Positions 1 to 36,692 of a stretch of 64,000 bases of DNA are shown piece after piece (positions within the stretch are counted from its first letter, which is position 1; each line of letters begins with the position of its first letter). The stretch lies in contig QKIQ01000057.1 of the NCBI GenBank assembly GCA_003249555.1, positions 1 to 64,000 on the forward strand. The letters are read 5' to 3'. Made by a program: the position numbers and the translations under genes. The DNA is from Clostridia bacterium. GTDB taxonomy: Bacteria > Bacillota > Clostridia > Christensenellales > SZUA-584. The notes under the pieces are model-generated. The model saw only the letters and a program-made list of their open reading frames with translations. It ran no database searches and had not been told where the DNA came from.

Positions 1-1503
1 TGGACTAATGGTTTTCACTATTTGTTCTATCAAGAATATGGAATAGGCAATGAACCAAATGTTCCCGGTATGTATTTCTATTTACATGCTGTCTATTCAT
101 ATTTGTGCCTGCTCTTTGGCTTTGCTTCACTAAGCTTTTTTGCAATAAAAAATTCGGGTATTACATCAATCAAGGCAGTTCTGATTCTTTTGGGCAGTAT
201 CATACCCACTGTGGTCAATTTTTTATACACAATAGGCGTGTCGGGCTTCAACGTGTTTTCCACTCCCATCGCGTTTACATTTACACTGGCCGTGTATCTG
301 CTTGCTATGTTTCGGTTCAATCTGCTAAAGGTTGCGCCTATTGCGCTGCAGACTGTGATTAACAGAATATCTGACAGTTTTGTCGTAGTGGATAAAAACC
401 TGAAAATCATCGATTACAACAAATCATTTGCCGATAATTTCCACTATATTTTCGGCTTGCATAAAGGCGATGATTTTAATAGAATACTAAGTAAGTGGAA
501 CTGTAAAAACGTCGGGTCTGAAGAGTTTCGCGCATTAATACAAAGTGCCGCACAAACAAGCGATGCGTTATTGCAAAATGTTGAAATTGACGCTGACGGC
601 GTGAGGCAGTATTTCACAGTAGAATTTACACCAATTATTCAACGTCACATCTGCGTTGCCATCATACTATTATTTAAGAATATTACACAGCATGTGAAGG
701 ACGTAGAAAAAATTCAGGAGAACCAAGCGATTCTGCTCGAGCGGGAACGGCTTGCATCGCTCGGTCAGCTGATAGGAGGTATTGCTCACAACTTAAAGAC
801 ACCGATTATGTCTGTGGCGGGAGGCATAGAGCAGCTTCATTGGCTTGCGGAAGAGTATGAATCTTCGGTTAATGACAGTCAGGTGACGAAGGCTGACCAT
901 TTGGAGATAGCGGCAGAAATGCAGCAGTGGCTTGGAAAAATGAAGGCGCATTTGAGTTACATGTCTGACATTATTTCCACTGTGAAAGATCAGGCCACAC
1001 AGTTTAATGTCCAGGGCAGGTCGTGGTTTACTTTGAGTGAGATGCTAAAACGCGTCAATATCTTAATGCAGCACGAACTAACCAAACATAATTGCAGATA
1101 CAGGCAGGATATCGACGTGCAACCGATGCAGAGAATCGACGGAGATATCAATAGCCTTGTACAGATATTGGATAATATTATTGTTAACGCTATACAGTCA
1201 TATGACAGTAGCGGAGGGGAGATAGTCTTGAAAGCGACAAGGGAGGAAAATTCACTCCTTTTAGCTGTCCGTGATTTTGGAAAGGGGATTGAGGCCAAAA
1301 TTAAGGACAGGTTGTTCAAGGAGATGATTACAACAAAAGGTAAGCATGGCACCGGGCTTGGGCTGTATATGTCCTACAGCACCATAAAAGGGGTGTTTAG
1401 AGGGAACATGTGGTTTGAGTCTAGCGTGGGGACGGGAACAGTATTCTATATTCAGCTGCCGTTGTCGAAAGAACAGATGATGGGAGACGATCAATATGCG
1501 TAG
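1..1503 (+). CDS. Sensor histidine kinase, 7TM-type N-terminus + PAS + HisKA/HATPase_c; 5' end cut by window edge
   Basis: Reading frame is open from base 2 (WTNGFHYLFYQEYG...); multi-TM N-terminus; GGIAHNLKTP H-box; N-box and DFGKGI / GTGLGL G-boxes. Confidence 0.88.
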   Translation, partial: WTNGFHYLFYQEYGIGNEPNVPGMYFYLHAVYSYLCLLFGFASLSFFAIKNSGITSIKAVLILLGSIIPTVVNFLYTIGVSGFNVFSTPIAFTFTLAVYLLAMFRFNLLKVAPIALQTVINRISDSFVVVDKNLKIIDYNKSFADNFHYIFGLHKGDDFNRILSKWNCKNVGSEEFRALIQSAAQTSDALLQNVEIDADGVRQYFTVEFTPIIQRHICVAIILLFKNITQHVKDVEKIQENQAILLERERLASLGQLIGGIAHNLKTPIMSVAGGIEQLHWLAEEYESSVNDSQVTKADHLEIAAEMQQWLGKMKAHLSYMSDIISTVKDQATQFNVQGRSWFTLSEMLKRVNILMQHELTKHNCRYRQDIDVQPMQRIDGDINSLVQILDNIIVNAIQSYDSSGGEIVLKATREENSLLLAVRDFGKGIEAKIKDRLFKEMITTKGKHGTGLGLYMSYSTIKGVFRGNMWFESSVGTGTVFYIQLPLSKEQMMGDDQYA

Positions 1504-3028
1504 AAGCAGGCTGATTGAGCTGTCTCAAGAATACAAAATAATGATAATTGACGATGAACAAGGCATTCTGGACAGTATTCAGGCTCTGCTCAATCGTAAT
1601 GGTTATTGGTGCATTGGTTTTACTGACCCGCTGGCCGGGCTGGAAGAGTTACGGCGCAATCATTATGATTTTCTTATACTTGATTACTATATGCAGCCGA
1701 TTCACGGCGAAGCGGTGGTTGAACAAATAAGAAAAACCAATTCAGAGCTTTATATACTTTTGCTGACCGGATACAAGGATTTGGCTCCCCCTATAAGCAC
1801 GATCAAGTCGCTTGATATTCAGGCGTATTGCGAGAAAAGTGACAGGCTTGACCAGCTACAGCTGCTGATTGAATCGGGAATTAAATCGATATCACAAATG
1901 AGGACGATACAGCAGTTCCGCGACGGACTGCAAAGTATATTGGGATCCGTCCCTAAGATTTACCAACTCCAGCCGATTGGAAGTATACTTGAAGAAATTC
2001 TTATCCAATTGCTTCCTATGGCGAACAGCTCAGACGCCTTTATTTTGGTAGACGATATACCCGGTATTGAGCGATTGGGGCAAAATACGAAGAAAAGCAT
2101 TTTTAAAGGCATTGGTAAATACAACGTTCAGATAGAAGAGTTTACAGAGCTCTTGGATCATGAGTTGATGGAAGCGATTGGGCGTGCCCGTACCGAAGTC
2201 AGAGTAATTAATCTTCCGGGCGGTGTCATCATACCACTTGGTGACGAGCCCAATACGGCAATAGGCGTGATTTACGTCAGCAGTATAGACGTGGACGAAG
2301 GAATTAAGCTGCTGCAGATTTATGCTAGACAGGCAGCGGCGTCAATCAGCAACGCATTTTTACATTGCCTTGTGAACACAAAAAATGAAGAGCTCAACAG
2401 CACATATGCGCAGTTGAAAGTCAGGTACATGGATACAATAGAGGTGCTGCGGCTTGCGGTAGACGCAAAGGACGAATATACCCGAGGTCATTCGGACAGA
2501 GTCTCATATTATTCGACAAGGATAGGTGAGAAATTGGGTCATTCACCCGAAGAATGTGAAAGGCTTCGTATAGCAGGTGTGTTCCATGATATTGGCAAAA
2601 TTGGAACAGCGGACGATATACTTTTAAAAAAACAAACGCTCAGCAAAGATGAATATGAGCAGATAAAACAGCATCCTATAAAAGGTGCAATGATATTATC
2701 TGCTGTATCCATGTTTCAGGATGTGGTGCCTATTGTAAGACACCATCACGAGCATGTTGACGGTAACGGGTATCCGGACGGCATAAAGGGCGACCAGATT
2801 GAGCTTAACGCGCGTATTATCGCTGTTGCGGATGCTTTTGATGCGATGATCAATGACAGACATTATCGTAAACACCTGTCATTGGAGAAAACGATAGAAC
2901 AGCTTGTCAGCGGATCGGGAAAACAGTTTGATGCAGATGTTGTCGCTGCGCTTTTAGATTTGCTCAAAAACGATGCCGAATTGCAAGAAAGGATAAAAGA
3001 CATAGAGGACAAGCAAAATAATAACTAA
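1496..3028 (+). CDS. Response regulator receiver + HD-GYP domain protein (probable c-di-GMP phosphodiesterase)
   Basis: Receiver motifs (IIDDE, LILDYYM, LLTGYKD); HD-GYP motifs HDIGKIG and HHEHVDGNGYPDGIKG; overlaps the kinase by 8 nt. Confidence 0.9.
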   Translation: MRRSRLIELSQEYKIMIIDDEQGILDSIQALLNRNGYWCIGFTDPLAGLEELRRNHYDFLILDYYMQPIHGEAVVEQIRKTNSELYILLLTGYKDLAPPISTIKSLDIQAYCEKSDRLDQLQLLIESGIKSISQMRTIQQFRDGLQSILGSVPKIYQLQPIGSILEEILIQLLPMANSSDAFILVDDIPGIERLGQNTKKSIFKGIGKYNVQIEEFTELLDHELMEAIGRARTEVRVINLPGGVIIPLGDEPNTAIGVIYVSSIDVDEGIKLLQIYARQAAASISNAFLHCLVNTKNEELNSTYAQLKVRYMDTIEVLRLAVDAKDEYTRGHSDRVSYYSTRIGEKLGHSPEECERLRIAGVFHDIGKIGTADDILLKKQTLSKDEYEQIKQHPIKGAMILSAVSMFQDVVPIVRHHHEHVDGNGYPDGIKGDQIELNARIIAVADAFDAMINDRHYRKHLSLEKTIEQLVSGSGKQFDADVVAALLDLLKNDAELQERIKDIEDKQNNN

Positions 3029-8209: not shown

Positions 8210-9067
8210 ATGAAAGTATATCTTGACTGCCTGCCATGTATGCTGCGGCAGGTACTTGAAGCATCACGTATGTCAACGGATAATGAGAAGTTACAAAGCG
8301 ATATCATGGATGCAGCCATAAGCGTGCTAAATCAATACAGATCGTTCAGCAACTCGCCTGAGATAGGCAGAGATATGCACAGAATCGTAAAAGAGATAAC
8401 CGGGGTTATAGATCCATATAGCTACGTGAAACAAAGGGACATAAAAACGGCACTTAGCCTATACTCTAAGATGAAGCAGATCGTTGCAAAAAAGCAAAAT
8501 CGTTTATATTGGGCGTTAAAAGCGGCTGCGGTAGGGAATGTTTTAGATTCTGCGATCAATTTGGGCTGCGGGATTGAGAAGAATATTGAGATGGAGGTTG
8601 AAAAGCCGTTTGCCGTCTGTGACATCGAGCGTCTTGAGTCTCAGTTGGAAACGGCAAAACGCATTCTAGTGATCGGTGACAACTCAGGAGAAACTGTGTT
8701 TGATTGCTTGCTGCTCGAACAACTCTCTAATTTTGATTTGACTTATGCGGTGAGAAGCGCTCCCATCATCAATGATGCCACAGAAGAGGAAGCGAAAGCT
8801 TCGGGTATAGACGGTTATGCCCGGATCATCTCAACGGGTTGCGATGTGCCGGGTGTGCTGCTAAATGAGTGCAGCCAGACGTTTCTGGATATTTTCTACG
8901 GAGCAGATATTGTCATCTGTAAAGGACAGGGTAATTACGAAACTTTATTGGAATGTAACAGAGATATCTATTTCTTACTCAAAGCCAAATGCCCGGTGCT
9001 TTCGGGGCTGCTCGGCGTCAGTTTAAATGAATATGTTTTTAAATACAATGTCTGTAAGTGTCAATGA
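8210..9067 (+). CDS. DUF89/ARMT1-like family protein
   Basis: MKVYLDCLPCMLRQVLEASR; VIGDNSGETVFDCLLLEQL; CKGQGNYETL signature motifs. Confidence 0.85.
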   Translation: MKVYLDCLPCMLRQVLEASRMSTDNEKLQSDIMDAAISVLNQYRSFSNSPEIGRDMHRIVKEITGVIDPYSYVKQRDIKTALSLYSKMKQIVAKKQNRLYWALKAAAVGNVLDSAINLGCGIEKNIEMEVEKPFAVCDIERLESQLETAKRILVIGDNSGETVFDCLLLEQLSNFDLTYAVRSAPIINDATEEEAKASGIDGYARIISTGCDVPGVLLNECSQTFLDIFYGADIVICKGQGNYETLLECNRDIYFLLKAKCPVLSGLLGVSLNEYVFKYNVCKCQ

Positions 9068-9350: not shown

Positions 9351-12300
9351 ATGAAGAGATGCAAATCGATATGTTTTTTCATATCAATTCTTGTTGTAAT
9401 ATCTTTTTTGTCGTCTTGTTTTTCAAACTCTCATGACAATTCGTTTATAGAAAATCAGCAGCCGCCCTCACAACCCCAGTTTGATGAGACAGGTACTGAA
9501 AATGAAAACCAACTTAACGAATCGGCACGGGTTTTTATTAAGTATGGGTTAATTGATGAAAATCAGTATTCAGCAGATAATTATGTATCCAGAGTTGTTG
9601 CGGTACAGATGATTGCTGACATTACGGGCCTTGCTAAAGAGGCACAAAGCAGTTCATATACTCATCCGTTTATCGACTTGTCTGATAAAGCGGAAAAGCA
9701 AATCGGGTATTTATATCATCTCTGTATTATAGACGGCATCTCAAATAACAGCTTCATGGAAGACGAGATCTGCAATCTCGACACTTTCCTTGTCTTCTTG
9801 CTGAGGGCACTCAATCATATTGGCGGAGAAGAGGGCAACATTCTCATAGAGAATGCTCGTAAAACGGCACTGGATAAAGGCTTAATATCTGGCGCGCTAG
9901 AGGAAAGCGACGGCCTTTTATCCGTTAATGATGCCTTTGATATATGCCACAACGCCTTATATGCATACATCAATGATGATGAAACACTGCTCACATACTT
10001 AAACAAAAAGGGCATGATTAAGACGGCTGATAAAGAAGGTATTAACCAGGCCTATGAAATCTTGGGAAACGGTAAACCTTTTTTTGAAGAGGCATTCGAC
10101 GACAAAAAAATATCCGGATACAACATCAGCCAAAATGGAAAGACATATTGGCATGGAAGCAGAGTAAAAGGAACGGATAACAAGATCACCGAAGATGGAT
10201 ATCTGCAGCTTGCGGGCACAGGACAAGAATTAGTGGAAGACCAGCAATACGCTCTTGACAAAGACTTGATGCAGGGAAATGAAAGCTACGGCATGACATT
10301 TACCGTCAACATCGCAAACATGGGAAATGAGGGCGATGAGAAACGTGTTATTTTTAGGGCCATTCCACGAACTGCTGATAAAGAATTTTCCAAGTATTAT
10401 GCGGTTAATTATTATATGGTTATACCCTTGGGGGATTATCAGTCCAATTTGGCGAGGTGCAAATGGTCGATTACCAACACCAACGCGCCCAGCGGTACGA
10501 AGCCATTGACTGAGGCTTATTATCTGCTGAAAGAAAATGTGGATTATACAGCAAGACTGTTGATTGAAAACACAGACGACGGCAATGTCCATATCGCGTT
10601 TTATATTGACGGCGCAGACCGCTATACCACAGCGGAAGAACCTCTGCTTGAGTATACCGATTCTACCCAATACAAAATCATGCAAAGCGCGGCGGGGCCT
10701 GCTCTTGGGAATTCAGGGTATCAAAATTGGGAGTGGGGTTATGCGTCTAACGTTCGTTTTGACGAGGTTAAGCTCTATGATACGAAAAACTTTGCTGCTT
10801 TTACCGAGAAATCAAAGGAGTACGCAGAAACGCCAATGACGTTGCAGGAAGATGATCCTTACGCGGGTCAACTGAAATTTCTGGTTAACAACGGCGCTAT
10901 CAAGCCTTACCAAAGGAATTTGGATTTTGGCGGAAATGTCAGCGTCGCGCAATTCTTGGCTTCGGCGATGTATTTAAACGGTAAGCATATGAACGAAGGA
11001 CAGACGCTGGAAGAGTTTGTTCTGCCCACCTATCAGAAGCTGTTCAAGGGCACAGTGGTTGAAAAACAAACGGACTTGAGCCGGGATATAACAAGATACG
11101 AAGCGGCGCTGATTATCAAAAGCTTTATGCGCGGCAGTCCCGAAACAAACAAATATAATTCCTTGTTTAAAGATGAGTTGGAAAAGGATTATCAGAGCTC
11201 GGTTTATTTTGCGGTGCAAAACAGCTACCTTCTTCTGGATGAAAGCAATCAATTTAATGGGGACGCATTTGTATCAAGAGAAGACATGCTGAAGGTTTTT
11301 GTCTGCGCTGTGGATTCTCGTTTAAGGAATAAGAACTATCAGCTTCAAGTTCCCGGCATCATATCGGATAACGCGATATTGCAGGGCGGCAAACCGGTAC
11401 CGATATGCGGAAAGGGTATGAACGGGGATACTGTGACCGTCAAGTTTAACGGGCAGACAAAGACGGCCAGGGTTGTGGATGGTGAGTGGAGCCTTGAGCT
11501 GGATGCCATGCCGTATGGCGGCCCGTACGATATGACGATCAAAGACTCAGGCTATACATATACATTCAAAAAGCTATATGTGGGAGAGGTTTTTATTGTG
11601 GCTGGGCAGTCTAATGCTGAATGGACTGTATACAATTCGGATGATAACAAGGACACTTTGAAGAATTTTAACAATCAAACCCGTGTAAGGCTATTTCGAC
11701 CGAAGAGAGTAAGAGCGACGACGCCTCAATTTGATACTGAAACGCAATGGCAAGTGGCCTATAATGAGTATTACGAGCATCTTATGGGCGAAGCGAGTGC
11801 AGTTGGTGTTTTCTTTGTGCAAAAGCTTATGGAAATCAATCCTGAACTGAAAAATGTAAAGATAGGCATTGTTCAGATAACCTATGGAGGAACCAGTATC
11901 GAGCTTTTCTTGCCAGACTGCGTTAATGAAAAGAATCACTTCATCCAAAGTGACAACGGATTTATCGCTTCGGGCTTTTGGAATGGATATATGGACTGTG
12001 TCACGCCGTACGCGGCCAAGGCGATGATTTACTACCAAGGCGAAAACAGTGCGCATCTTGGCTATCAATACGAACCGATGCTCAGGGATTTTATATGGGG
12101 AGTCAGGAACGAATGTTGTGATTCCTCCCTGCCGGTAATGCTTGTTCAGTTGGCCGGCTACGGCGATAACTATGGACAGGATAACGATAAGTGGCCTCAG
12201 ATTAGGGAAATCCAGATGCGGGTTGCAAATACAACCGATAATGTGGGGCTGGTTACGGCGATAGATCTTTCAGATAAAGACCCATACGACATTCATCCGA

Positions 12301-13109
12301 CACAAAAAAGACCCATCGGCGACAGACTCGCCTATCTTGCGATGGAGCTGGTATACGGGCAAGCTAACGACAAAAAAAGCTCAACGTTAACCGGTTATGA
12401 GCATGACGGAAATGTATTAAAGCTCAAGTTTGACGCAAAAGAGCTCTACATCAAAGAGGATGTTTTCGGGGATGTCGCTTTTGAAATTATGAATCCTGAC
12501 GGCACGTGGGTATCCGCGCAGGTTAAAGTAGATGGTAATAGTTTATTGGTTTGGAACGATGGGACGGCTGTACCCGAAGGCGTCAGATACGCATGGGCGA
12601 ATTATCCCAAAGCGTGTCTTTTCAATGAGGATGGCCTTCCTGTTCTACCGTTTAATACAACAAAGGACTTAAGCAAAGTCATTTCGCATGATGATTTTAC
12701 AACAAATGAGCACTATTTGAAAAAGGCATATCATTTATTAAATGACAATGATGTGATCATCAATTTAACAAGAAATAATGAGCATCGGCATGTCAAAGCG
12801 GTCAATGCGTATTTGCTGGAATACACCGACGGTGACATAGAGGGACAGGCGCCCGGAGATCAAATTGTGTTGCTCAAGAAACAGGAAGATTTTATTTGCG
12901 AAAGCGGAACCACGGAAACGATTGTTATTGCGGTCGGACATGGGCTTTTGGTGGGAGACTGGATACGAAACATAAAACTTGACGCATTGACACAGGTGCT
13001 GGAAGTGATTGATGAGAATACAGTGCGGGTCGGTTTTGTTGCAAACCAATGTGACGGTAACCGATTTGAAGTCTATAAAAATACGGGAGTCATAACGGCG
13101 GAAAAGTAA
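9351..13109 (+). CDS. Lipoprotein with SLH-like repeats and sialate O-acetylesterase-type SGNH domain
   Basis: Signal peptide/lipobox FLSSC; SLH-like repeats in N-terminal half; GEVFIVAGQSNAEW block I and later DKDPYDIHPTQKRPIGDRLA; ATG at 9351 has RBS GGGGGA. Confidence 0.8.
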   Translation: MKRCKSICFFISILVVISFLSSCFSNSHDNSFIENQQPPSQPQFDETGTENENQLNESARVFIKYGLIDENQYSADNYVSRVVAVQMIADITGLAKEAQSSSYTHPFIDLSDKAEKQIGYLYHLCIIDGISNNSFMEDEICNLDTFLVFLLRALNHIGGEEGNILIENARKTALDKGLISGALEESDGLLSVNDAFDICHNALYAYINDDETLLTYLNKKGMIKTADKEGINQAYEILGNGKPFFEEAFDDKKISGYNISQNGKTYWHGSRVKGTDNKITEDGYLQLAGTGQELVEDQQYALDKDLMQGNESYGMTFTVNIANMGNEGDEKRVIFRAIPRTADKEFSKYYAVNYYMVIPLGDYQSNLARCKWSITNTNAPSGTKPLTEAYYLLKENVDYTARLLIENTDDGNVHIAFYIDGADRYTTAEEPLLEYTDSTQYKIMQSAAGPALGNSGYQNWEWGYASNVRFDEVKLYDTKNFAAFTEKSKEYAETPMTLQEDDPYAGQLKFLVNNGAIKPYQRNLDFGGNVSVAQFLASAMYLNGKHMNEGQTLEEFVLPTYQKLFKGTVVEKQTDLSRDITRYEAALIIKSFMRGSPETNKYNSLFKDELEKDYQSSVYFAVQNSYLLLDESNQFNGDAFVSREDMLKVFVCAVDSRLRNKNYQLQVPGIISDNAILQGGKPVPICGKGMNGDTVTVKFNGQTKTARVVDGEWSLELDAMPYGGPYDMTIKDSGYTYTFKKLYVGEVFIVAGQSNAEWTVYNSDDNKDTLKNFNNQTRVRLFRPKRVRATTPQFDTETQWQVAYNEYYEHLMGEASAVGVFFVQKLMEINPELKNVKIGIVQITYGGTSIELFLPDCVNEKNHFIQSDNGFIASGFWNGYMDCVTPYAAKAMIYYQGENSAHLGYQYEPMLRDFIWGVRNECCDSSLPVMLVQLAGYGDNYGQDNDKWPQIREIQMRVANTTDNVGLVTAIDLSDKDPYDIHPTQKRPIGDRLAYLAMELVYGQANDKKSSTLTGYEHDGNVLKLKFDAKELYIKEDVFGDVAFEIMNPDGTWVSAQVKVDGNSLLVWNDGTAVPEGVRYAWANYPKACLFNEDGLPVLPFNTTKDLSKVISHDDFTTNEHYLKKAYHLLNDNDVIINLTRNNEHRHVKAVNAYLLEYTDGDIEGQAPGDQIVLLKKQEDFICESGTTETIVIAVGHGLLVGDWIRNIKLDALTQVLEVIDENTVRVGFVANQCDGNRFEVYKNTGVITAEK

Positions 13110-13113
13110 GAGC

Positions 13114-14691
13114 ATGGAATCGAGAATGCAAAGACGATACCGCAAAGCGACTGAGGTCACTGAGGAGAGACGGTATCGAAAAAAGAATAAGGGAAACGGG
13201 AGAAGACGGTTTCGCAGCGCCCTTATGGCAGAAAAACAGTTTCCGTTTGTATCTGTGGGCGCGGTTATAGTGGCGCTGATTGTTATTACAATCGTCTTAT
13301 TTGTGCCGCCATATGTGGGCATGGAAGATAACGGTGATTACGCCAGAGTGACCTATGGACAGGGCCTTTATGATTTGCCGGAAAACAGCGAGCTTCTGTA
13401 TAACGGCTATTTTATTAAAGATTACGGCATCATGCAGTATTATAACGAATATAGCAGCACTGTCTTTACGTCTCAGGTGCTGTTCATTCAGCCAGCTATA
13501 TGGCTGGACAAGCTCTTTACGGGCAACGACGATATATTTGATCTCCGATTCCTTGGCATCGTGATGACGATATATTTTCTTATCGTATTATATTTTTTGG
13601 TTGAATATTTGTCCCATAAGCTATCGATTATCAGTCGAATGTCGATCGCGGCAGTTTGTTTGTTTGTCTTTGTGGACACGGGCTATACAGCTTACTTTAA
13701 TTCTTTCTTTTCTGAGCCGCTGGCATATATCAGTTTGCTGGCTTGTATCACATGCGCACTCATGTATGCGGATGAAAGGCACAATCAATATGTGCTGCTT
13801 GCCGGGTTTGTTATTAACGGTATGATACTGACGTTTTCAAAACAGCAATTTGCTCCAATCGGCGCGGTCCTTGGCATCATGTGCTTGTTTTTCCTGCTTA
13901 AAGCCGGCGCGCGCTTATTCAAATGGCTTATCGCACTGTCTTCCGCTGCGCTGCTGTTTACCGGTATATTCACCTATTTGCTGATTTCAACGGAGTTTAC
14001 CAATATCAACATGTATCATTCTATGACACGCGGCGTACTGATGACATCAGACAATCCGCCGGAAACGCTCGAATCGTTTGATATTGACAGCCAATACGAA
14101 CTACTTAATAAAACCATTTACTTTGACCGTTATCCGGTTATTGATCCTGAAGACGAAAGGCTTCAAGAGAACTTTTACAGCCAATATAATATTTTTTCAA
14201 TTGTGAAACACTACGTGTCGAACCCGGGCGCTTTTATGGAAATGATGAAGCTGGCGGCTCAAAATGCTTATATGATCCGGCCTGAATTGGGTAATTATGA
14301 ATATTCAAGCGGTTATCCGCCCAACCAAAAAGCACAGGATTTTTCTGTTTACAGCAATATTAAGCAAACATTAACGCCAAAAACAACGGGGTTTATCATT
14401 ATATGGATGGTTGTGGTTATCGCTTTATTTTATAAGAAAAGAATGAAGCAGATTATTATTTGCGGGCTCATATTAATTGGCTTATCGCAGATAATTGTAC
14501 CGATTTTTGGCGCGGGCGATGCGGATTTGGCAAAACATATGTTTTTGTATAACGTATCTTTTGATACTGTCAGCGTCATCGTGTTTGCCCATGTTGTGGC
14601 GTTTATAGACAAGAAGTACAAGGAGAGAAAAAAGGGCGCGCTTAAGGAACAGACGATACTTAACGATACATCAAACGGGCAGGTCACATGA
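13114..14691 (+). CDS. Polytopic membrane protein of EPS operon (possible GT-C-like; function unknown)
   Basis: About 10 hydrophobic helices; large extracytoplasmic loop GMEDNGDYARVTYGQGLYDLPEN; tightly packed in operon. Confidence 0.65.
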   Translation: MESRMQRRYRKATEVTEERRYRKKNKGNGRRRFRSALMAEKQFPFVSVGAVIVALIVITIVLFVPPYVGMEDNGDYARVTYGQGLYDLPENSELLYNGYFIKDYGIMQYYNEYSSTVFTSQVLFIQPAIWLDKLFTGNDDIFDLRFLGIVMTIYFLIVLYFLVEYLSHKLSIISRMSIAAVCLFVFVDTGYTAYFNSFFSEPLAYISLLACITCALMYADERHNQYVLLAGFVINGMILTFSKQQFAPIGAVLGIMCLFFLLKAGARLFKWLIALSSAALLFTGIFTYLLISTEFTNINMYHSMTRGVLMTSDNPPETLESFDIDSQYELLNKTIYFDRYPVIDPEDERLQENFYSQYNIFSIVKHYVSNPGAFMEMMKLAAQNAYMIRPELGNYEYSSGYPPNQKAQDFSVYSNIKQTLTPKTTGFIIIWMVVVIALFYKKRMKQIIICGLILIGLSQIIVPIFGAGDADLAKHMFLYNVSFDTVSVIVFAHVVAFIDKKYKERKKGALKEQTILNDTSNGQVT

Positions 14692-15800
14692 AAAAGATTG
14701 CGATACTGGCGGCGTTAATATTCATTTTATCATCGTGTTCTGCAGGAGGGACAAACACGCAGCCGAGCGAAACCGCCGGCGAAAAACAGAATAGCAGCAC
14801 GCAGCCGCAGACGCAACTGCGCGAGGACATCTGTTTTGATTTTTTAAAAACTGAGATGATCATACAGCAGGGCGGGGTTAGAACAAACTATCTTGACACA
14901 CCGCATAACAAGGATTTTGCCACCGGCGGCGAGGTGTTGTCTGAATCGATGGGGCTGCTGATGCTTTACGCGGTCGAGGCTCTTGATGAAGCGCTGTTTA
15001 AAAATGCGCTTGGCTTTGTGGAAGAAAGCTTGGATACCGGTAAAATCCTATCATACAGATATGCAGCCGAAACAGGTGCGTATCATGTGAACGCGTTTAT
15101 TGATGATATTAGGATTATCAGAGCTTTAATTCTAGCGGATGACGTATTTGACGGCCAATATTCAAAGCTTGCAAAAAAGTATGCTGACAGGCTATACGAT
15201 ACAAACGTCATAAACAATTGCGTCTTTGATATGTACGATGAGACGTATAATGTCCGCAATGATTTTGTTACTTTGTGCTATATCGATCTGTATACGATAC
15301 AACTGCTGCAAAGGGACGATGCGAAGTGGGAAAAGGTATTTGAATATATGCACGATATAATAAAGGATGGATATATCAATGATACATTTCCGATGTATGT
15401 GCCGTCTTATAGCTACGCAACGAAGCAATATCAGCATGGCGATATCAATACGGTTGAAGCGACGCTGACGGCGCTGAATCTGGCGCGCATTGGTGAATGT
15501 CCGCAGTCAACGGTCAGATACCTCAAAGACAGCATAGAAAACGGAGCCATTTATGGTTCATACAGTCATGATGGGACAAAACAAAGCGATACAGAGTCCA
15601 CAGCTGTTTATGCGATTTGCGCGCTTATTGCCAAAGAGGTTCAAGACGAGGACATGTACAAAATGTGTATCGACAAAATGAATCGCTTTCAGGTTATGGA
15701 CGAGAACAGTGAAGTGTACGGGGCCTTTGCCAATCCGGTCACTTTAGACTTGTATTCTTTTGATAATTTGATGGCATTGCTGGCGTACAGCCAAGGGTGA
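14688..15800 (+). CDS. Glycoside hydrolase family 8-like lipoprotein (CcsZ/PssZ/BcsZ-like)
   Basis: Lipobox LSSC; VLSESMGLLMLYAVEA resembles the GH8 SEGMGYGM motif; alpha/alpha-barrel-like sequence. Confidence 0.72.
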   Translation: MKKIAILAALIFILSSCSAGGTNTQPSETAGEKQNSSTQPQTQLREDICFDFLKTEMIIQQGGVRTNYLDTPHNKDFATGGEVLSESMGLLMLYAVEALDEALFKNALGFVEESLDTGKILSYRYAAETGAYHVNAFIDDIRIIRALILADDVFDGQYSKLAKKYADRLYDTNVINNCVFDMYDETYNVRNDFVTLCYIDLYTIQLLQRDDAKWEKVFEYMHDIIKDGYINDTFPMYVPSYSYATKQYQHGDINTVEATLTALNLARIGECPQSTVRYLKDSIENGAIYGSYSHDGTKQSDTESTAVYAICALIAKEVQDEDMYKMCIDKMNRFQVMDENSEVYGAFANPVTLDLYSFDNLMALLAYSQG

Positions 15801-15803
15801 AAG

Positions 15804-17084
15804 ATGATCAGAAAGGTATTCATATCAATATTAATAGCTGCGGTGATCGTAATGCCGCTTCCCACTGCCGTATATGCTCGCTCGGGTCAGGTGCTTTTGT
15901 TATACAACGATAAGGAAGAGATGCAGGTCATATCAAATCTGATCAAAGCGTGCGAAATGACGCCTGTGCCAATTGACAGCGTGGCGTATTCGACCGAAAT
16001 GATTGAGGATTATGAGTATGTGGTGCTGCAGGATGCTGCGCCGCTGAAAGATGTCTTGCAGTCGGGTAAAAGACCGTTGTGTCTGGGTGATGAATTTAAA
16101 GTCATTCCGGGCGCACAGGTGGATACCATAAACAGAAAAATGCATGCCGAGCTAAAAGTGTATGAAAACACCCAGTCGATAATCCTGGAGCAGGGCTTTT
16201 CATATATTTCCGATTACGACGGAGAAGCGATTGGCAGCATCAGTTTTGAGGGCAATCAGACACCGATGGGAGTGGTGACAGACAAAATTATGTTTGCCCC
16301 GTATTTTAGCCAAGACGACATCACGGCATTTGCGGTGGCCAAAATGCTCAATATATATTTCGGCAGGATAGACGGCGGAAAAATGTACGTCATGATTGAC
16401 GAAGTGTACCCGATTGACGATATTGACATGCTGGAACTTATAGCGGATGAATTCTACAACAGCGGCATACCGTTCGTGATGAGTATTATGCCGGTATATG
16501 AGAATACGGATTATCCGTCATTCAAAAGATATACAAACGCTTTAAAATATATTCAATCAAGAAACGGATCTTTGGTTATGCACGAACCGATCATGACGGG
16601 CAATGAGCTGGTTGGGGACGACATTGATGTGAGAATGGAAAAAGCGTACAAAAGCTTTGAAGAAAACGCTGTTCATATCTATGAAGAAACCTTGTTTCCC
16701 TATGAGGTTTCGCTTGATATGCTGGCGGGTGTTCATCCCCAAAATGAATTGTTTATCAGTTTGCCAATCGATACGATTATAAAATTTGAAGTGTTTGAGG
16801 ATAAAGCCGCGCTTGATGCGGCCATAGAGACGGTGAACAGCAAATGGCTGCAGATTGGCGACTATAATCGCAATTTTACAGACAACATAGCTGTTTATGA
16901 GGGCACTGAGATTGATGCAGATTTTACTTACAGAGAAAAAAGTGAGAGTAGCTTTGCTTTTTTGGTGGACAAGGGCAATCAAGTACTGACCGTAGTGGTT
17001 TTAATCAGCGGCTTTATTATTATCGCGCTGATCATATTTGGATATCGGTTGTACAGAGCGAAATTCCTTAAAAAAGGGAGATAG
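15804..17084 (+). CDS. DUF2334/polysaccharide-deacetylase-like protein with C-terminal TM helix
   Basis: Signal peptide; YVMIDEVYPIDDIDMLELIADEFYNSGIPFVMSIMPVY; C-terminal TM. Confidence 0.72.
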   Translation: MIRKVFISILIAAVIVMPLPTAVYARSGQVLLLYNDKEEMQVISNLIKACEMTPVPIDSVAYSTEMIEDYEYVVLQDAAPLKDVLQSGKRPLCLGDEFKVIPGAQVDTINRKMHAELKVYENTQSIILEQGFSYISDYDGEAIGSISFEGNQTPMGVVTDKIMFAPYFSQDDITAFAVAKMLNIYFGRIDGGKMYVMIDEVYPIDDIDMLELIADEFYNSGIPFVMSIMPVYENTDYPSFKRYTNALKYIQSRNGSLVMHEPIMTGNELVGDDIDVRMEKAYKSFEENAVHIYEETLFPYEVSLDMLAGVHPQNELFISLPIDTIIKFEVFEDKAALDAAIETVNSKWLQIGDYNRNFTDNIAVYEGTEIDADFTYREKSESSFAFLVDKGNQVLTVVVLISGFIIIALIIFGYRLYRAKFLKKGR

Positions 17085-17085
17085 T

Positions 17086-18333
17086 ATGAACAACGTCGAC
17101 TTGCTGGGCTTAATAGCGCTGATATGTATCTGGGCTTTGCTGATGGTAAACCAAGTACTGGTTGTGGCTGGCTATTTATATTATATAAAAGTCACAAGAT
17201 CACCAGCAAAAGCATTAGTCCGTTATCCGTATATCAGCGTGCTAGTGCCTGCCCACAATGAAGCGAAGGTGATCGTCAAAACGGTGGAATCTTTGTTGGA
17301 TCTTAATTATCCGGACAATAGATATGAGATTATTGTCATTAACGATAATTCGTCAGATAACAGCAAAGAACTCTTGGAGGAAATTCAAAAAAGGTACAAA
17401 AACAGAGCGCTAAAAGTCATCAATACCGATAAAGTGACAGGGGGAAAAGGAAAATCGAATGCGCTTAATATCGGGTATAAGCAATCCGCAGGAGAGTATA
17501 TTGTCGTTTATGATGCGGACAATACGCCTGAAAGAGATGCACTGATGTATCTTGTTGCGGAAATAGAAAACGATGACGAGCTTGCGGTGGTTATCGGTAA
17601 GTTCAGAACGAGAAACAGAGATGTGAACTTATTAACGCGTTTTATTAACATTGAAACGTTATCGTTTCAATGGATGGCACAGGCAGGCAGATGGCAGCTT
17701 TTCAATCTTTGCACGATACCCGGTACAAATTTTATCATACGGCGCGAAGTGATCGATAAAATCGGCGGGTGGGATATTCATGCTGTTGCGGAAGATACGG
17801 AGCTGAGTTTCAGAATCTACGCAATGGGATATAAAATTAAATTCATGCCGCTGTCTGTCACATGGGAACAAGAGCCGCAGACACTCAAAGTTTGGTTCAA
17901 ACAGAGAACGCGGTGGGTAAAAGGCAACATCTATGTGCTGATTAAACATCTTCCATCGTTATTCAGTGCGAAAAGTCAGCGAATGAAGTTTGATATGCTA
18001 TACTTTTTTTCAATCTATTTTATATTGCTGGGGGCGCTTATTATATCCGATGCGCTTTTTCTGCTGAACGCACTGGGGCTTATCACCATGACGCTTGCCA
18101 GCCTCAGTATTTTGCTATGGATGATGGCGATTTTCTTGTTTACGATAACTGTGTTTATCACATTGACGACGGAGAAAGGCGAAATGCGCGTGTCTAATCT
18201 GTTTGTCACTTTGTTGATGTACTTTACATATTGTAAGCTCTGGATGGTTGTGGCAGCATATGGTTTGGTTCAATACCTGATTGATATAGTTTTCAAAAGA
18301 AAAACAAGATGGTATAAAACCGAACGTTTTTAA
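17086..18333 (+). CDS. Family 2 processive glycosyltransferase, BcsA/PgaC-like, without C-terminal PilZ domain
   Basis: DADN, EDTELSFR, QRTRW (D,D,D,QxxRW) motifs; multiple TM helices; ends right after TM region. Confidence 0.9.
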   Translation: MNNVDLLGLIALICIWALLMVNQVLVVAGYLYYIKVTRSPAKALVRYPYISVLVPAHNEAKVIVKTVESLLDLNYPDNRYEIIVINDNSSDNSKELLEEIQKRYKNRALKVINTDKVTGGKGKSNALNIGYKQSAGEYIVVYDADNTPERDALMYLVAEIENDDELAVVIGKFRTRNRDVNLLTRFINIETLSFQWMAQAGRWQLFNLCTIPGTNFIIRREVIDKIGGWDIHAVAEDTELSFRIYAMGYKIKFMPLSVTWEQEPQTLKVWFKQRTRWVKGNIYVLIKHLPSLFSAKSQRMKFDMLYFFSIYFILLGALIISDALFLLNALGLITMTLASLSILLWMMAIFLFTITVFITLTTEKGEMRVSNLFVTLLMYFTYCKLWMVVAAYGLVQYLIDIVFKRKTRWYKTERF

Positions 18334-18370
18334 TAGTGGCTTTATGTGGTATATGTGAATAAGGAGTAGG

Positions 18371-20767
18371 ATGCTTATGAAAAAGATAGTAATACTGACT
18401 TTTGTTTTCCTATGCGTGCTGACTATTGGGCCTTTATTGGTTCTGGATTGTCAGGGCGCGGAAACAGAACTGGCAATGTCGGAAAGTGAAAAAAAGGTGG
18501 CTTTTGAACCGGAAGCGTCCGCGGAAGCCGCACCTTCTGAAACTGCACAAAAAGAGGCTGCCGCCACCGAAAGCGAGCAGCCAGCGCCAACGCAGACGAC
18601 GGCACCTGCGGAAGACACATCGGCGGAGACGGCGGGGACAGCGTCCGGACAAGAATCCGGCGCAAACGGCGGTGAGGAATGCTGCACGGACACAATTTTG
18701 GCGTCCGGACAAGCACAGGTTTCCGAATCCGGACAAGCACAGGTTTCAGAAAAAGTTCTCGAATTGGCTGTGGATAAGAATGATTATATATCGACGACGT
18801 CCTTTACAGCAGACCACTATATGGTCGGCCTTTTCTCAGAGATTACACAGGGTTTCAACACAGGTGATTGGGATATCACGGATGCTCAGCTGACACTAAG
18901 CTTTTCGACAACACAACTGGTTTCAGAAGTTCTGTCAGACATTACGGTATCCGTTAACGGGGTCAGGTTCTATTCGGAAAACGTGCCAGTCACAGACGGA
19001 ACAAAAAGAGAGCTAACCGTGAAGATACCTGTTGAGCATATTATCGAAGGGTATAACGTTATCGCGATAGAAGGCTATATACGGACGTACAATGGATATC
19101 CGTGTGTAGACGATGTGACCACTGCCAACTGGATGAACGTGTTTAAGGATTCATTTATTGAAATATCGTATCATCCTTTGGAACAATGCACAAATATCGA
19201 TGATTTCTATTCGGCGTTTACATCTATTGATGCGCTGGAAAATGATCAAAGCACTGTAGCAGTTGCCACCGGCTATGATACGGATGAGCTTGATGCCGCG
19301 CTGACGGCACTTGCCGGTGTTTCCAGAACATCAACAAAGAATTATCAAAACATCAATTTAATCGCTTGCGACGGCTGTTCCCACGCCGAAGGCTTAAAGT
19401 ATGTGATATATATTGCAAAGCCCGAACATTTGCCCGATATGCTCAAATCGGCAGTGTCTGAAAACGCAAACTTGGAAGGTTCGGACGCAGGCATGTTTCT
19501 GCTTCCCGGAGATATCAATGTATTGGTCGTGACGGGCAATGATGGGGCGGCGCTGGAAAAGGCGGCAGCGATGCTATCCGATCCTATCACCATGAATCAG
19601 CTTAAGAGGCAAGTGAAAATCATCGATGAAAATGAGGATGTGTATGTCAGAAAAGAGGGAATTAAGCAATACACCAAACTAACTGAAACGGGTACGTATT
19701 TCGACGGTCCATTCAGACAGAAGTATGACTATCAAATTAACTTTGAAAATAACAGGAAGCTCGCTTATGGCAGCGAGCTGGATCTGTATTTCAGATATTC
19801 AAAGAATCTGGATTTTGACCGTTCTTTGGTGACAGTCTATGTGAATGACGTGCCTATCGGAAGCCAGAAATTATCTATGGCAAAGGCGGAGGGCGATAAT
19901 ATAGTGCTCAGTATACCGACCGACATTGAAGTGACCGGCAGTTTCAAAATGACAGTGGCGTTCGATCTGGAGATAAAAGATCTTTGGTGCACCTTGAGGC
20001 AAAGCGAAACGCCATGGGCCTACGTATCTAACGAATCCATGCTGAAACTCAATTCAGTGGAGGTGCCGTATTATCTGTTTGAAAATTATCCGTATCCATT
20101 TATTTCAGGAGGGGAACTTAACGATGTTGTGCTCGTTGTGCCGGATGATAATTCAGACCTCGATTTGAATCTGATGAGCGATTTTATGCTCACGATGGGA
20201 CAGTTTTTAAAATATAACACCGGTGAATTTACCGTCGTAAGGGCTTCAAATCCGGGAGATATTGATAAGAAAAACGTGATAGCTGTGGGTACGTTTAATA
20301 ACAATCCGTTTATCGCAGGACTCAATGACGAACTGTTCTTCCGTTTTTACGATAACGGGGCGGGAATACAATCAAACGAGAAATTGCTGATAGAATCAAC
20401 ATATTCGACAACGCTCGCGACAGCACAAATTATTCAGTCGCCGTATTCCAGTGTCAAAAATGCGGTGCTTGTACTGGCAAGCGCAAACAAAAGTGACCTG
20501 AAAAACGCCTTTGCGTATTTTGGGGACACAACCGAGCTCTGGAAACTGTTCGGAGACGGCTTTGTGGCGGATAAAGACGACATTTTCCAATATAGATTTA
20601 AAGAGGAGAATGAGAAAGAAGAACAAGCTACTGAAGAATTCTTTGAAAGAACAGATGTTATGAACCTGATCTACGTGGCGGGAGCCGTGCTTGTCATATT
20701 GCTTGCGGCTGTCATATTTATGGTAATGAGATATAGGAGGAGACATACTCATGAAGAGGAGAAATAA
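18371..20767 (+). CDS. BcsB-like synthase subunit with Ala/Glu-rich N-terminal linker and C-terminal TM anchor
   Basis: RYSKNLDFDRSLVTVYVNDVPIGSQKL, WCTLRQSETPWAYVSNESML, C-terminal single TM; follows GT2. Confidence 0.85.
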   Translation: MLMKKIVILTFVFLCVLTIGPLLVLDCQGAETELAMSESEKKVAFEPEASAEAAPSETAQKEAAATESEQPAPTQTTAPAEDTSAETAGTASGQESGANGGEECCTDTILASGQAQVSESGQAQVSEKVLELAVDKNDYISTTSFTADHYMVGLFSEITQGFNTGDWDITDAQLTLSFSTTQLVSEVLSDITVSVNGVRFYSENVPVTDGTKRELTVKIPVEHIIEGYNVIAIEGYIRTYNGYPCVDDVTTANWMNVFKDSFIEISYHPLEQCTNIDDFYSAFTSIDALENDQSTVAVATGYDTDELDAALTALAGVSRTSTKNYQNINLIACDGCSHAEGLKYVIYIAKPEHLPDMLKSAVSENANLEGSDAGMFLLPGDINVLVVTGNDGAALEKAAAMLSDPITMNQLKRQVKIIDENEDVYVRKEGIKQYTKLTETGTYFDGPFRQKYDYQINFENNRKLAYGSELDLYFRYSKNLDFDRSLVTVYVNDVPIGSQKLSMAKAEGDNIVLSIPTDIEVTGSFKMTVAFDLEIKDLWCTLRQSETPWAYVSNESMLKLNSVEVPYYLFENYPYPFISGGELNDVVLVVPDDNSDLDLNLMSDFMLTMGQFLKYNTGEFTVVRASNPGDIDKKNVIAVGTFNNNPFIAGLNDELFFRFYDNGAGIQSNEKLLIESTYSTTLATAQIIQSPYSSVKNAVLVLASANKSDLKNAFAYFGDTTELWKLFGDGFVADKDDIFQYRFKEENEKEEQATEEFFERTDVMNLIYVAGAVLVILLAAVIFMVMRYRRRHTHEEEK
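18704..18751 (+). repeat. 24-bp tandem duplication in the BcsB-like linker
   Basis: TCCGGACAAGCACAGGTTTC[CG/AG]AA twice in tandem, coding SGQAQVSE x2. Confidence 0.85.
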
Positions 20768-21599
20768 AAACTTACAAACCGATATCAGCTTTATCATCCT
20801 GGTTATACTAATGTTTGTGTATTTCATTTTCCTGATCTATCAAGAAGAATATCTTATGGATAACTTTTTGATTGCGCTGGTTGTTTTTATCATCGTCATG
20901 ATTACATACTTTACGAATTTGACAACGGGCTTGATAATAAACACGACTTTAATACTCATATACATCACATATCTGATTATTCAGAGCATAACAAAAGGCA
21001 GCGTCATCCAATCGTATGTGTATTTTTGGATATTTATGTCTCCCGCGCTGACAACCGCATTTTCCTTGTTTACGATGAACACGTCCACGTTGCAAAAACA
21101 AGTAACGGACTTAAACGATAAGCTTGTTACCATATCCACGCTGAATGAGGATACGAAACTGAAAAACCTAAGGGCATTTGAAAATGATGCAAGGATTTTT
21201 ATGAGCATTGCAAAAAGGTATAATGCGGATTTTGGCGTGCTGCTCATAAAGTTTAAGCATCAAAGGGAGCTGGAAAGGCTTTCGAGAAAAGAAGGGATGA
21301 AGCAAATTGTTAATCTTGTTGTGGGTGTTATCAGAAAAGCGACAAGAGCTGAGGATGAATTATATTTGCTTGATGATGAAGAAATACTATTCGGTGTGAT
21401 TCTTTTAACCAAAAAAGAAAGTATAAAAGTGATACACGACAGACTGAAACAGGAAATTGCGGTTATAGATACTAATAAGGTTCTTAATACAAGGCAGCTC
21501 GTCTTAGATATGAGAATTGGCATGGCGTTTGACGATGGCAGCAAAACAGTACTTGAGCTGCTGGATATTGCGAAAGACGCCATGCAGTATGATGTATGA
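20751..21599 (+). CDS. Membrane-anchored degenerate GGDEF domain protein; putative c-di-GMP receptor (PelD/PssE-like)
   Basis: N-terminal TM helices and coiled coil; GGDEF position reads DDEEI but RAED lies exactly 5 residues upstream (RxxD-x5-GGDEF spacing). Confidence 0.78.
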   Translation: MKRRNKNLQTDISFIILVILMFVYFIFLIYQEEYLMDNFLIALVVFIIVMITYFTNLTTGLIINTTLILIYITYLIIQSITKGSVIQSYVYFWIFMSPALTTAFSLFTMNTSTLQKQVTDLNDKLVTISTLNEDTKLKNLRAFENDARIFMSIAKRYNADFGVLLIKFKHQRELERLSRKEGMKQIVNLVVGVIRKATRAEDELYLLDDEEILFGVILLTKKESIKVIHDRLKQEIAVIDTNKVLNTRQLVLDMRIGMAFDDGSKTVLELLDIAKDAMQYDV

Positions 21600-21646
21600 T
21601 GGTTAAGCGTCCGTTAGAATAGCGACAATACAGATCGGGAAAGTTA

Positions 21647-23248
21647 ATGGCGATGCGAAAAATTATATTCATCTTGATATTGGTCATATTCGTGCTCGCG
21701 GCGTTTATTTCAGGCTGTAAGCAGGGCAACAAATTTGAAGAGGATGACATACAGCAAAGCGAAACGATGATTACGAATACTTGCGAACCCGATACCACAC
21801 ATATACCCGAAACGGATGCTTTTACAGAGAATGAACCTGAAGTCATTGTGAGTTTATTATTTGAGGCGGAAGACGCGGTGCTTGAGGGCTTGCAGACATA
21901 CGCTTCCAATGACAGCGGCGAGCAGGACATAAACGGAAGGGGATATGTCGGCACATGGGATACGCAAGACAGCAAGCTTATCTTTCATGTCGAGGTGCCT
22001 GAATCCGGAACGTATGAACTGGAGTTTTTAACGGCAGCATGTGGAGACGAAAGCTATAATACCGTTATCGTGAATGATAGAACCTTTTTTGAAGGACTCT
22101 ATACAAAAAGCAGCGACTTTGAATCCAGTACAATGAAGGTGGAACTGCAAAAAGGCACAAATGTGGTTGTGGTTACAAGCGGTTGGGGCTTTATATACAT
22201 GGATTGCATGTATGTAAGGTCTGCCGAGGGCATCGGTCCTGATGTGTATAGCGTTGAAAAAACTTTGACGAACAAAAACGCGTCTGAAAACACCAGGCGA
22301 TTGATGAGCTTTTTGGCAGACCAATACGGAAAATACACGTTGTCCGGACAGTATAATAATGACGATGGCATTGACTCACCCGAGGTAAAGGAACTCTATA
22401 AGCTGACGGGAAAATATCCGGCGATCATGGGTTTCGATTTTGTCGATTATTCACCGACCAGAGTGCAGCACGGTACTGAATCGCACCAGACCGAATATGC
22501 GATGCAATGGTACGACATGGGCGGAATTGTGACTTTTATGTGGCATTGGAATGCGCCAAAGGATCTCTTGGACACGGAGGAGCAGCCTTGGTGGAGAGGC
22601 GTTTATACCGAGGCCACGACGTTTGATTTGGAAAAAGCTCTAAACGGCGAGGATACCCTTGGATATGAACTAATGCTCCGCGATATCGACGTGATTGCGG
22701 CGCAGTTGAAGATTTTAGCGGATAAAGATATACCGGTGCTTTTTAGACCGCTGCACGAAGCAAGTGACGGATATTTCTGGTGGGGCGCCTATGGAGCGCA
22801 AAATTATATAAAGCTGTGGAAACTGATGTATGAACGCCTGACTGACACGCATGGGCTTAATAATCTGATATGGGTTTTTAACGGGCAGGATGCAGACTGG
22901 TATCCGGGAGACGAATATGTCGATATCATCGCTGAGGACTTGTATACAAAACCGTATGATTATGAGAGCCATTTTAACCGATTTATAAAGGCGCTTGATT
23001 ATACCGATACGAAAAAGATGATAGGTCTTGCTGAGATCGGAGAGATTCCGGATCCCGATTTGATGTACGAGGATAATGCGTGCTGGTTGTTTTATATCAT
23101 ATGGAATGATGAGTACGTGGTTGATAAGGAAAACAAGAAAATATCTGATAAGTATAACAGCTTAGATCATTTTATTAAGGTGTACGAAAACAGCAGGATC
23201 ATCACACTGGATGAACTGCCCCGGTTGGATATTTATCCATATAATTAA
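21647..23248 (+). CDS. CBM35-like + glycoside hydrolase family 26 (beta-mannanase-like) lipoprotein
   Basis: Lipobox AAFISGC; FEAEDAVLEG...ESGTYELEFLTA CBM35-like; YTLSGQYN, FRPLHEASDGYFWWGAYG (acid/base), IGLAEIGE (nucleophile) GH26 motifs. Confidence 0.85.
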   Translation: MAMRKIIFILILVIFVLAAFISGCKQGNKFEEDDIQQSETMITNTCEPDTTHIPETDAFTENEPEVIVSLLFEAEDAVLEGLQTYASNDSGEQDINGRGYVGTWDTQDSKLIFHVEVPESGTYELEFLTAACGDESYNTVIVNDRTFFEGLYTKSSDFESSTMKVELQKGTNVVVVTSGWGFIYMDCMYVRSAEGIGPDVYSVEKTLTNKNASENTRRLMSFLADQYGKYTLSGQYNNDDGIDSPEVKELYKLTGKYPAIMGFDFVDYSPTRVQHGTESHQTEYAMQWYDMGGIVTFMWHWNAPKDLLDTEEQPWWRGVYTEATTFDLEKALNGEDTLGYELMLRDIDVIAAQLKILADKDIPVLFRPLHEASDGYFWWGAYGAQNYIKLWKLMYERLTDTHGLNNLIWVFNGQDADWYPGDEYVDIIAEDLYTKPYDYESHFNRFIKALDYTDTKKMIGLAEIGEIPDPDLMYEDNACWLFYIIWNDEYVVDKENKKISDKYNSLDHFIKVYENSRIITLDELPRLDIYPYN

Positions 23249-23291
23249 TCGTATTTAAAAATTATCTCATGAAAGCGGGTTGGGTACAAAA

Positions 23292-24389
23292 GTGAAAAAG
23301 GTTATGCTGGTTTTCGGGACAAGACCTGAAGCCATAAAAATGTGTCCGTTGGTCAATGAACTGAAAAGGCGCAAAGGCATCAGCACGACTGTATGCGTGA
23401 CGGGACAGCATAGAGAAATGCTGGATCAGGTGCTGGAGGTGTTTGATGTTGAGCCGGACTATGATCTTTGCATTATGCAGCCCAAACAGACGCTTTTTGA
23501 TATCACAACAAACGTGCTTGAGAATATTAAGAACGTTTTAACTGAAGAAAAACCCGATGTAGTTCTTGTGCATGGCGATACATCGACTACGTTCGTCAGC
23601 GCACTGGCGTGCTTCTATTTGCAGATTCCCTTGGGACATGTTGAAGCCGGACTGCGTACTTATAATATTTATTCGCCGTACCCTGAGGAGTTTAACAGGC
23701 AGGCGGTCAGCTTAATTTCAAAATACAATTTTGCGCCGACGGAGAAAGCAAAGCAGAATTTGCTTGCAGAAAAGAGAAACGCTGACGACATCTATGTGAC
23801 AGGGAATACGGCTATTGACGCATTAAAGACGACTGTAGCGCAAGATTATTCTCATCCGCTTTTGGATTGGGCAAAGGGAAGCCGATTGATATTGCTGACT
23901 GCGCACAGACGTGAAAATTTAGGCAAACCGTTGGAAAATATATTCTCGGCGATCAAAAAGATCGTGGAGGAATTTGATGATATTAAAGTGATATATCCCA
24001 TACATATGAATCCCGTTATCCGAGAAACGGCAAACAGAATATTTAAAGAAACAGACAGGATCAGCATTGTTGATCCGTTTGATGTGCTCGACTTTCATAA
24101 TGTTATGGCAAGAGCATATATGGTGCTGACGGACAGCGGCGGAATACAGGAGGAAGCCCCGTCTTTGGGCAAGCCGGTTTTGGTGCTCCGTGACACGACG
24201 GAAAGGCCGGAAGGGGTGGAAGCCGGAACCTTAAAATTGGTCGGAACAGATAAAAAGAATCTCTACAATGAGTTTAAAACACTGCTGACTGATGAAAAAG
24301 CTTATCATGCGATGAGCATTGCGGCGAATCCTTATGGTGACGGTTTGGCGTCGAAACGAATTGCGGATATTCTGGAGGGCATAGGATAA
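23292..24389 (+). CDS. wecB: UDP-N-acetylglucosamine 2-epimerase (non-hydrolysing)
   Basis: VMLVFGTRPEAIKMCPL, TGQHREMLDQVL, VHGDTSTT, GHVEAGLRT, LTDSGGIQEEAP; GTG start at 23292. Confidence 0.93.
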   Translation: MKKVMLVFGTRPEAIKMCPLVNELKRRKGISTTVCVTGQHREMLDQVLEVFDVEPDYDLCIMQPKQTLFDITTNVLENIKNVLTEEKPDVVLVHGDTSTTFVSALACFYLQIPLGHVEAGLRTYNIYSPYPEEFNRQAVSLISKYNFAPTEKAKQNLLAEKRNADDIYVTGNTAIDALKTTVAQDYSHPLLDWAKGSRLILLTAHRRENLGKPLENIFSAIKKIVEEFDDIKVIYPIHMNPVIRETANRIFKETDRISIVDPFDVLDFHNVMARAYMVLTDSGGIQEEAPSLGKPVLVLRDTTERPEGVEAGTLKLVGTDKKNLYNEFKTLLTDEKAYHAMSIAANPYGDGLASKRIADILEGIG

Positions 24390-36650: not shown

Positions 36651-36692
36651 CTGGCAGAACAGGGGGCTATAGTCCGGCTGCCAGCCTTTTTT
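36651..36692 (+). terminator. Terminator closing the phage-like segment
   Basis: CTGGCAG...CTGCCAG followed by CCTTTTTT; overlaps 3' end of gerB-like gene. Confidence 0.6.

Follow-up and report, generated by a model that had tools for sequence, protein, structure and literature searches.

An expanded Pss-type exopolysaccharide operon in a Clostridia genome with a recurrent esterase, GH26 and WecB gene set

Our analysis of a 64,000-nucleotide stretch of contig QKIQ01000057.1 from a Clostridia bacterium (the window, i.e., the whole stretch of DNA analyzed) demonstrated that nine open reading frames, all on the + strand, follow one another with overlaps of 4-17 bases or gaps of 1-47 bases. This co-directional layout had been proposed as an operon in a preliminary description made from the sequence alone, and all nine genes were found where that description had placed them:

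9351-13109, + strand: gene 1, SASA esterase with SLH-like parts, a predicted lipoprotein of 1252 aa
13114-14691, + strand: gene 2, WsfD-type GT-C membrane hexose transferase, predicted to carry out side-chain decoration
14688-15800, + strand: gene 3, GH126 lipoprotein (PssZ/CPF_2247 family), predicted EPS hydrolase
15804-17084, + strand: gene 4, DUF2334 membrane-anchored protein
17086-18333, + strand: gene 5, processive GT2 synthase, PssC orthologue, without PilZ
18371-20767, + strand: gene 6, BcsB-like export partner (PssD type) with a signal peptide and a C-terminal TM segment
20751-21599, + strand: gene 7, TM protein with a degenerate GGDEF domain and an intact I-site (PssE/YdaK type), predicted c-di-GMP receptor
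21647-23248, + strand: gene 8, CBM35-GH26 lipoprotein of the beta-mannanase family
23280-24389, + strand: gene 9, WecB-type non-hydrolysing UDP-GlcNAc 2-epimerase, predicted to supply UDP-ManNAc

Gene 1 starts at ATG 9351, with a strong ribosome-binding site (AGGGGG) ahead of it, and the GT2 gene starts at ATG 17086. Lipoboxes could be read from the sequence in gene 1 (LSSC), gene 3 (LSSC) and gene 8 (ISGC). An Rfam search found no c-di-GMP riboswitch ahead of the operon; its sole match in the window, SNORA5 (E 0.02), was taken as chance, and scans for promoters and terminators gave counts near shuffled expectation. A test for recent insertion using the left flank was uninformative as to synteny, with the gene at 8210-9067 being 26-31% alike in three relatives and absent in others. 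The host genome is a draft of 130 contigs, 92.7% complete and 5.6% contaminated, and statements that it holds only one copy of a gene are therefore provisional. Elsewhere in the window are spore germination genes (36667-40688; GerA family and a spore permease), the host thus probably being a spore former, and adjacent GH94 phosphorylase and GH1 genes (49153-52919) that form a locus of their own for the use of beta-glucan or cellobiose.

We compared the operon with a set of 94 loci, made up of 80 named loci from a profile search of genome contigs for BcsB relatives, 13 unnamed loci from whole genomes, and the window, and identified the neighbouring genes in each with profiles that started from the window genes and were refined by iteration. 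Profile searches placed the DUF2334, GT2 (without PilZ), BcsB-like, degenerate GGDEF, CBM35-GH26 and UDP-GlcNAc 2-epimerase genes in the families named in the preliminary description, far above chance. The synthase, gene 5 (Pfam GT2, 8e-33), is 415 aa long and ends after its TM region, with no PilZ match in Pfam. It is 64% identical to its Listeria floridensis orthologue vs 26% to E. coli PgaC and 25% to BcsA, and in a GT2 tree it lies among Bacillota Pss-type synthases, apart from PgaC and BcsA; to call the operon a divergent member of this type was thus an overstatement. The D,D,ED,QxxRW motifs are near-invariant among 90 operonic GT2s. Gene 6, which adjoins the GT2 gene, matches BcsB (PF03170, 5.6e-46, 157 bits) and is the only BcsB copy in the host genome. 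This BcsB homology speaks for a Bcs- or Ccs-like system making plain or modified cellulose, but such a product is highly improbable, as the synthase is so distant from BcsA and lacks PilZ, and GH5, MBOAT and DHHW genes are absent, with WecB, GH26 and GH126 genes present instead. GT2 identity and gene content led us to reject a cellulose or PNAG product, in keeping with the earlier expectation that the polymer is probably not plain cellulose.

The putative receptor, gene 7 (Pfam GGDEF, 3.1e-6), reads LDDEE at the GGDEF position and RAED at the I-site. Among operonic GGDEF homologues, the catalytic motif is gone and the I-site residues R199/D202 are retained in 83 of 87. The host genome encodes 20 GGDEF proteins, so c-di-GMP is very likely made in this host. 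A response regulator that combines a DUF3369 domain with an HD_5 (HD-GYP-like) domain, a candidate c-di-GMP phosphodiesterase, is encoded ~6 kb upstream of the operon (1496-3028).

Gene 2 had been described only as a polytopic membrane protein. It does contain about 9 hydrophobic segments, and we now identify it as a WsfD-type GT-C transferase (NCBIfam NF051875, 489 bits against a cut-off of 80, 1.3e-146), with WsfD matches in 83 ORFs across the locus set. In principle, such GT-C transferases draw on lipid-linked sugar donors together with a GtrA-type flippase (PMC8035078). A GtrA gene lies directly ahead of wsfD in two related genomes described below (G188 and G956), and the window genome contains one GtrA-domain match, away from the operon; these observations support the addition of hexose side chains outside the membrane by WsfD, a role that we infer.

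Gene 3 required a change of family. Described at first as GH8-like, it has no Pfam GH8 match, and a GH8 identity was rejected in favour of GH126, with matches to CPF_2247 (3REN, 3.8e-52) and PssZ (6R2M, 7.8e-12). The GH126 catalytic residues E86, D139, R142, Y198 and Y308 are identical in all 69 operonic proteins. CPF_2247, the closest solved relative, is described as a probable alpha-amylase, yet these 69 operonic GH126 genes lie in Pss-type EPS loci, a context that questions the amylase label for the window's branch of the family. Gene 4 (Pfam DUF2334, 7.8e-7) reads HEPIM in place of the HGYTH motif of intact relatives. With the second histidine lost, gene 4 is probably without deacetylase activity and N-deacetylation is unlikely here. 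Of 86 loci, only 6 keep both histidines, and four of these also contain GH113.

Within 7 kb of the BcsB gene, the 94 loci contain GT2 in 90, GGDEF in 87, DUF2334 in 86 and GH126 in 69. A six-gene core, i.e., WsfD GT-C, GH126, DUF2334, GT2, BcsB and degenerate GGDEF, therefore recurs as a block in most of the 93 other loci across Bacillota. Paenibacillus, Enterococcus and Pediococcus have the order GH126-WsfD-DUF2334-GT2-BcsB-GGDEF. Listeria floridensis and Acetobacterium share this order but lack an in-line GH126 (WsfD-DUF2334-GT2-BcsB-GGDEF), and Clostridium has WsfD-GGDEF-DUF2334-GT2-BcsB. The core of the window follows the Bacilli type, with the GGDEF gene after BcsB. Variants of these loci include two tandem BcsB-GGDEF pairs behind one GT2 in Clostridium minihomine (L034, 5615-12915), possibly two export/receptor partners for one synthase, and another accessory type in Lachnospiraceae and Clostridium neonatale (L094, L091, L100, L023, L108, L109), where the core has beside it a gene for a PMT_2-like membrane protein of the GT-C type, about 580-680 aa long. 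BcsB-GGDEF pairs on contigs labelled Anaerolineaceae (Chloroflexota; L033, L041) group with Bacillota, reflecting either transfer or binning contamination.

The window operon carries more than this core. Gene 1 consists of an SLH-like part (residues ~60-229), a lectin-like beta part (~240-500), a second SLH-like part (~500-660), a SASA domain (746-995; Pfam, 8e-17) and a unique C-terminus. The SGNH element of the SGNH/SLH lipoprotein first proposed is specifically of the SASA sialate-O-acetylesterase type, matching a sialic acid 9-O-acetylesterase (PDB 7kmm, 5.6e-47), and the SGNH-type catalytic motifs GQSN and IHP are intact in gene 1 and both of its full-length orthologues (3/3). The SLH element is under Pfam detection in the window, and is clear in the full-length orthologue from G956 (PF00395, 2.8e-10). 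A single-sequence fold model of the lectin-like part was unusable (pLDDT 36). Pyruvylated ManNAc in wall polymers is a ligand of SLH trimers (PMC10435577), and the presence of an SLH-like protein within a putative ManNAc operon suggests docking of gene 1 on a ManNAc-bearing glycan.

A search of 391 Clostridia genomes with gene 1 gave some match in 150, mostly to SASA or SLH-like parts. Besides the window's own genome, only one (G188) matches over residues 238-1251 (E 3.5e-250), with the next best match (2.4e-48) covering the SASA part alone. The G188 locus reads WsfD-GGDEF-DUF2334-GT2-BcsB-GH126-GH26, followed by the gene 1 orthologue. In a further search, made with no reference to Pss, the lectin-like/SLH part of gene 1 alone served as the query against 399 genomes from the phylum, and the single match outside the window genome was G956, where the locus reads WsfD-GGDEF-DUF2334-GT2-BcsB-GH126-GH26-SASA-WecB, the same nine functions as in the window in another order. 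Full-length relatives of gene 1 thus occur in 2 of about 790 Clostridia and phylum genomes, both inside Pss operons and beside GH26, and are 41% (G188) and 40% (G956) identical to the window protein over about 1030 residues. In a genome from another family of the host's taxonomic order (G507), a locus on a truncated contig reads BcsB-GGDEF-GH26-WecB, with a GH26 59% identical to that of the window. Strong matches to Pss BcsB are present in only 14 of the 391 Clostridia genomes, and of 396 genomes from the host's order, only the window genome and G507 contain one, besides one marginal match. Because Pss BcsB is rare in Clostridia, a chance meeting with gene 1 is unlikely.

In the BcsB tree, the window and G507 group with C. 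minihomine, the Anaerolineaceae MAG contigs and Acetobacterium, and G188 and G956 with Clostridium-type cores. Forcing these four together was rejected by the AU test (p-AU 2.6e-6, a descriptive value, since the tree had been inspected before the test, although the choice of group followed gene content). The set is therefore found on two non-sister Pss core lineages, having been recruited to cores on two or more occasions or transferred from one to another. The extra genes had been read as marking a distinct system. The esterase and GH26 genes do accompany the core again in two further genomes from a separate lineage, but comparison of gene neighbourhoods showed that most Pss loci are without them, and we class the SLH/SASA esterase, GH26 lipoprotein and WecB as an accessory set rather than as core. 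This set is the new part of the operon and is apparently unreported: our survey of the open-access literature found no paper describing a GH26 or an SLH/SASA esterase with Pss, which is weak evidence of absence, the closest remark being that no GH26 is characterised in any Wzx/Wzy cluster (PMC13390465).

Gene 9 (TIGR00236, 1.7e-157) is the only WecB copy found in the 92.7% complete draft genome. That the genome's only WecB lies in the operon supports a ManNAc polymer and the earlier proposal of co-encoded precursor supply, and argues strongly, if provisionally, that the operon would provide its own UDP-ManNAc. Gene 8 matches GH26 (Pfam, 2.2e-73) and CBM35 (1.8e-14) and contains the motifs RPLHE and AEIG. 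Both catalytic glutamates are kept in 4/4 operon GH26s, and a comparison with ordinary beta-mannanases found no obvious active-site change in these four proteins as a signature of specificity. GH26 proteins from plasmids are at most 46% identical and added no context. Beta-mannan and a beta-1,4-ManNAc chain share one backbone configuration. This likeness, together with the recruitment of another mannanase family, GH113, in sister loci, favours action of the GH26 on the EPS, a putative substrate in view of the ordinary active site.

The closest relative of gene 8 is a fungal endo-mannanase, Podospora Man26A (3ZM8, 7.9e-93), in a match that extends across the CBM35 and reflects the same layout. 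Together with how common SASA domains are in Clostridia and with the fact that plant mannans are acetylated, this is the case for a core that makes a ManNAc polymer while gene 1 and the GH26-CBM35 protein deacetylate and then cut acetylated plant mannan, the two activities being linked only via surface attachment on fibre. We consider this explanation rather unlikely, as no second GH26 was found in the genome, full-length gene 1 is found only inside Pss operons, and the set occurs on two separate core lineages with differing gene orders. A backbone that holds plain beta-1,4-mannose plus ManNAc, with the GH26 cutting at the mannose links and the GH126 elsewhere, would fit the ordinary catalytic motifs and the twofold recruitment of beta-mannanase families (GH26 here, GH113 in Peptostreptococcaceae-type loci), but it is less plausible still, given a GT2 so close to Listeria-type synthases, which make a ManNAc backbone, and a co-encoded WecB.

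The reading we prefer, and which we consider probable, is an expanded Pss-type operon making and remodelling a beta-1,4-ManNAc-based exopolysaccharide under predicted c-di-GMP control. In this model, WecB would make UDP-ManNAc, which the GT2 would polymerise, threading the chain through the membrane with its BcsB-like partner; binding of c-di-GMP at the I-site of the membrane GGDEF protein would switch synthesis on; WsfD would add hexose side chains outside the cell; the GH126 and GH26 lipoproteins would trim or release the chain; and the SLH/SASA esterase would stay at the surface, probably on a ManNAc-bearing glycan, to remove acyl groups or dock the polymer. We infer the composition of this polymer from Listeria, and likewise its regulation and the substrates of the GH26 and the esterase. 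Counting against our reading, the full accessory set is present in only three genomes, the operon contains no acyltransferase as a partner that would give the esterase a substrate, and ordinary beta-mannanases need not accept a 2-N-acetyl group. We propose that the accessory enzymes act on the operon's own polymer. That the esterase, GH26 and WecB form a dedicated remodelling module for poly-ManNAc is a tentative proposal; if true, with the GH26 here and the GH113 of the sister type, mannanase families would for the first time include enzymes specific to beta-1,4-ManNAc links, and the SLH repeats would hold the gene 1 protein on the ManNAc polymer that its operon makes. Our findings extend the Pss system of Listeria and Bacillus to an uncultured, probably spore-forming lineage of Clostridia, show wide sharing of the six-gene core and name a recurrent accessory set with directly testable targets. 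They also bear on the true substrate of GH126 and on whether mannanase families cut ManNAc polymers; such enzymes could serve as biofilm dispersers.

The order of the core and the close identity of its GT2 to the L. floridensis orthologue indicate that the window operon is a Pss/Yda-type system, i.e., of a known kind. For the B. subtilis representative, ydaJKLMN, a detailed gene-to-gene correspondence is presumed, and no WecB, GH26 or SASA gene is known in this five-gene operon. Like the window, it is an EPS operon encoding a c-di-GMP receptor (YdaK) and glycosyltransferase subunits (YdaM/YdaN) (PMC5422440, PMC13274460). The Pss system of L. monocytogenes (pssA-E with an unlinked pssZ) shares with the window a GT2 without PilZ, a BcsB partner and an I-site GGDEF receptor, PssE, through which it is switched on (PMC4125290), as well as the GH126 hydrolase PssZ (PMC7479077), and its product is {4)-beta-ManNAc-(1-4)-[alpha-Gal-(1-6)]-beta-ManNAc-(1-} (PMC10172500). 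A Pss-type assignment had been proposed from the BcsB partner, the type of GGDEF receptor and the lack of PilZ, and both gene families and synteny support it; the window differs from Listeria in having GH126 inside the operon, plus WecB, GH26 and the SLH/SASA esterase. The likeness to C. difficile Ccs (ccsZABHI) that had also been suggested extends to synthase-dependent EPS production in a clostridium, but Ccs has PilZ on its synthase, a GH5, an unrelated CBM11-like CcsB, an MBOAT/DHHW pair and no BcsB homologue (PMC7710045), and membership of Ccs was rejected for the window operon, which contains BcsB and no PilZ, GH5, MBOAT or DHHW. Its C. difficile relative is instead the second BcsA/BcsB locus of strain 630, with GH113, WecB and a deacetylase, for which a ManNAc-rich EPS is proposed (PMC7710045). 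Peptostreptococcaceae-type loci (L026, L103, L111) show this layout, and such loci contain GH113 rather than GH26, mostly keep the DUF2334 metal motif and have no SLH/SASA esterase. The E. coli NGR system (NfrA/NfrB/WecB) resembles the window in being c-di-GMP-dependent, in requiring WecB and in its proposed ManNAc polymer (PMC8669472), but uses Gram-negative export and different proteins.
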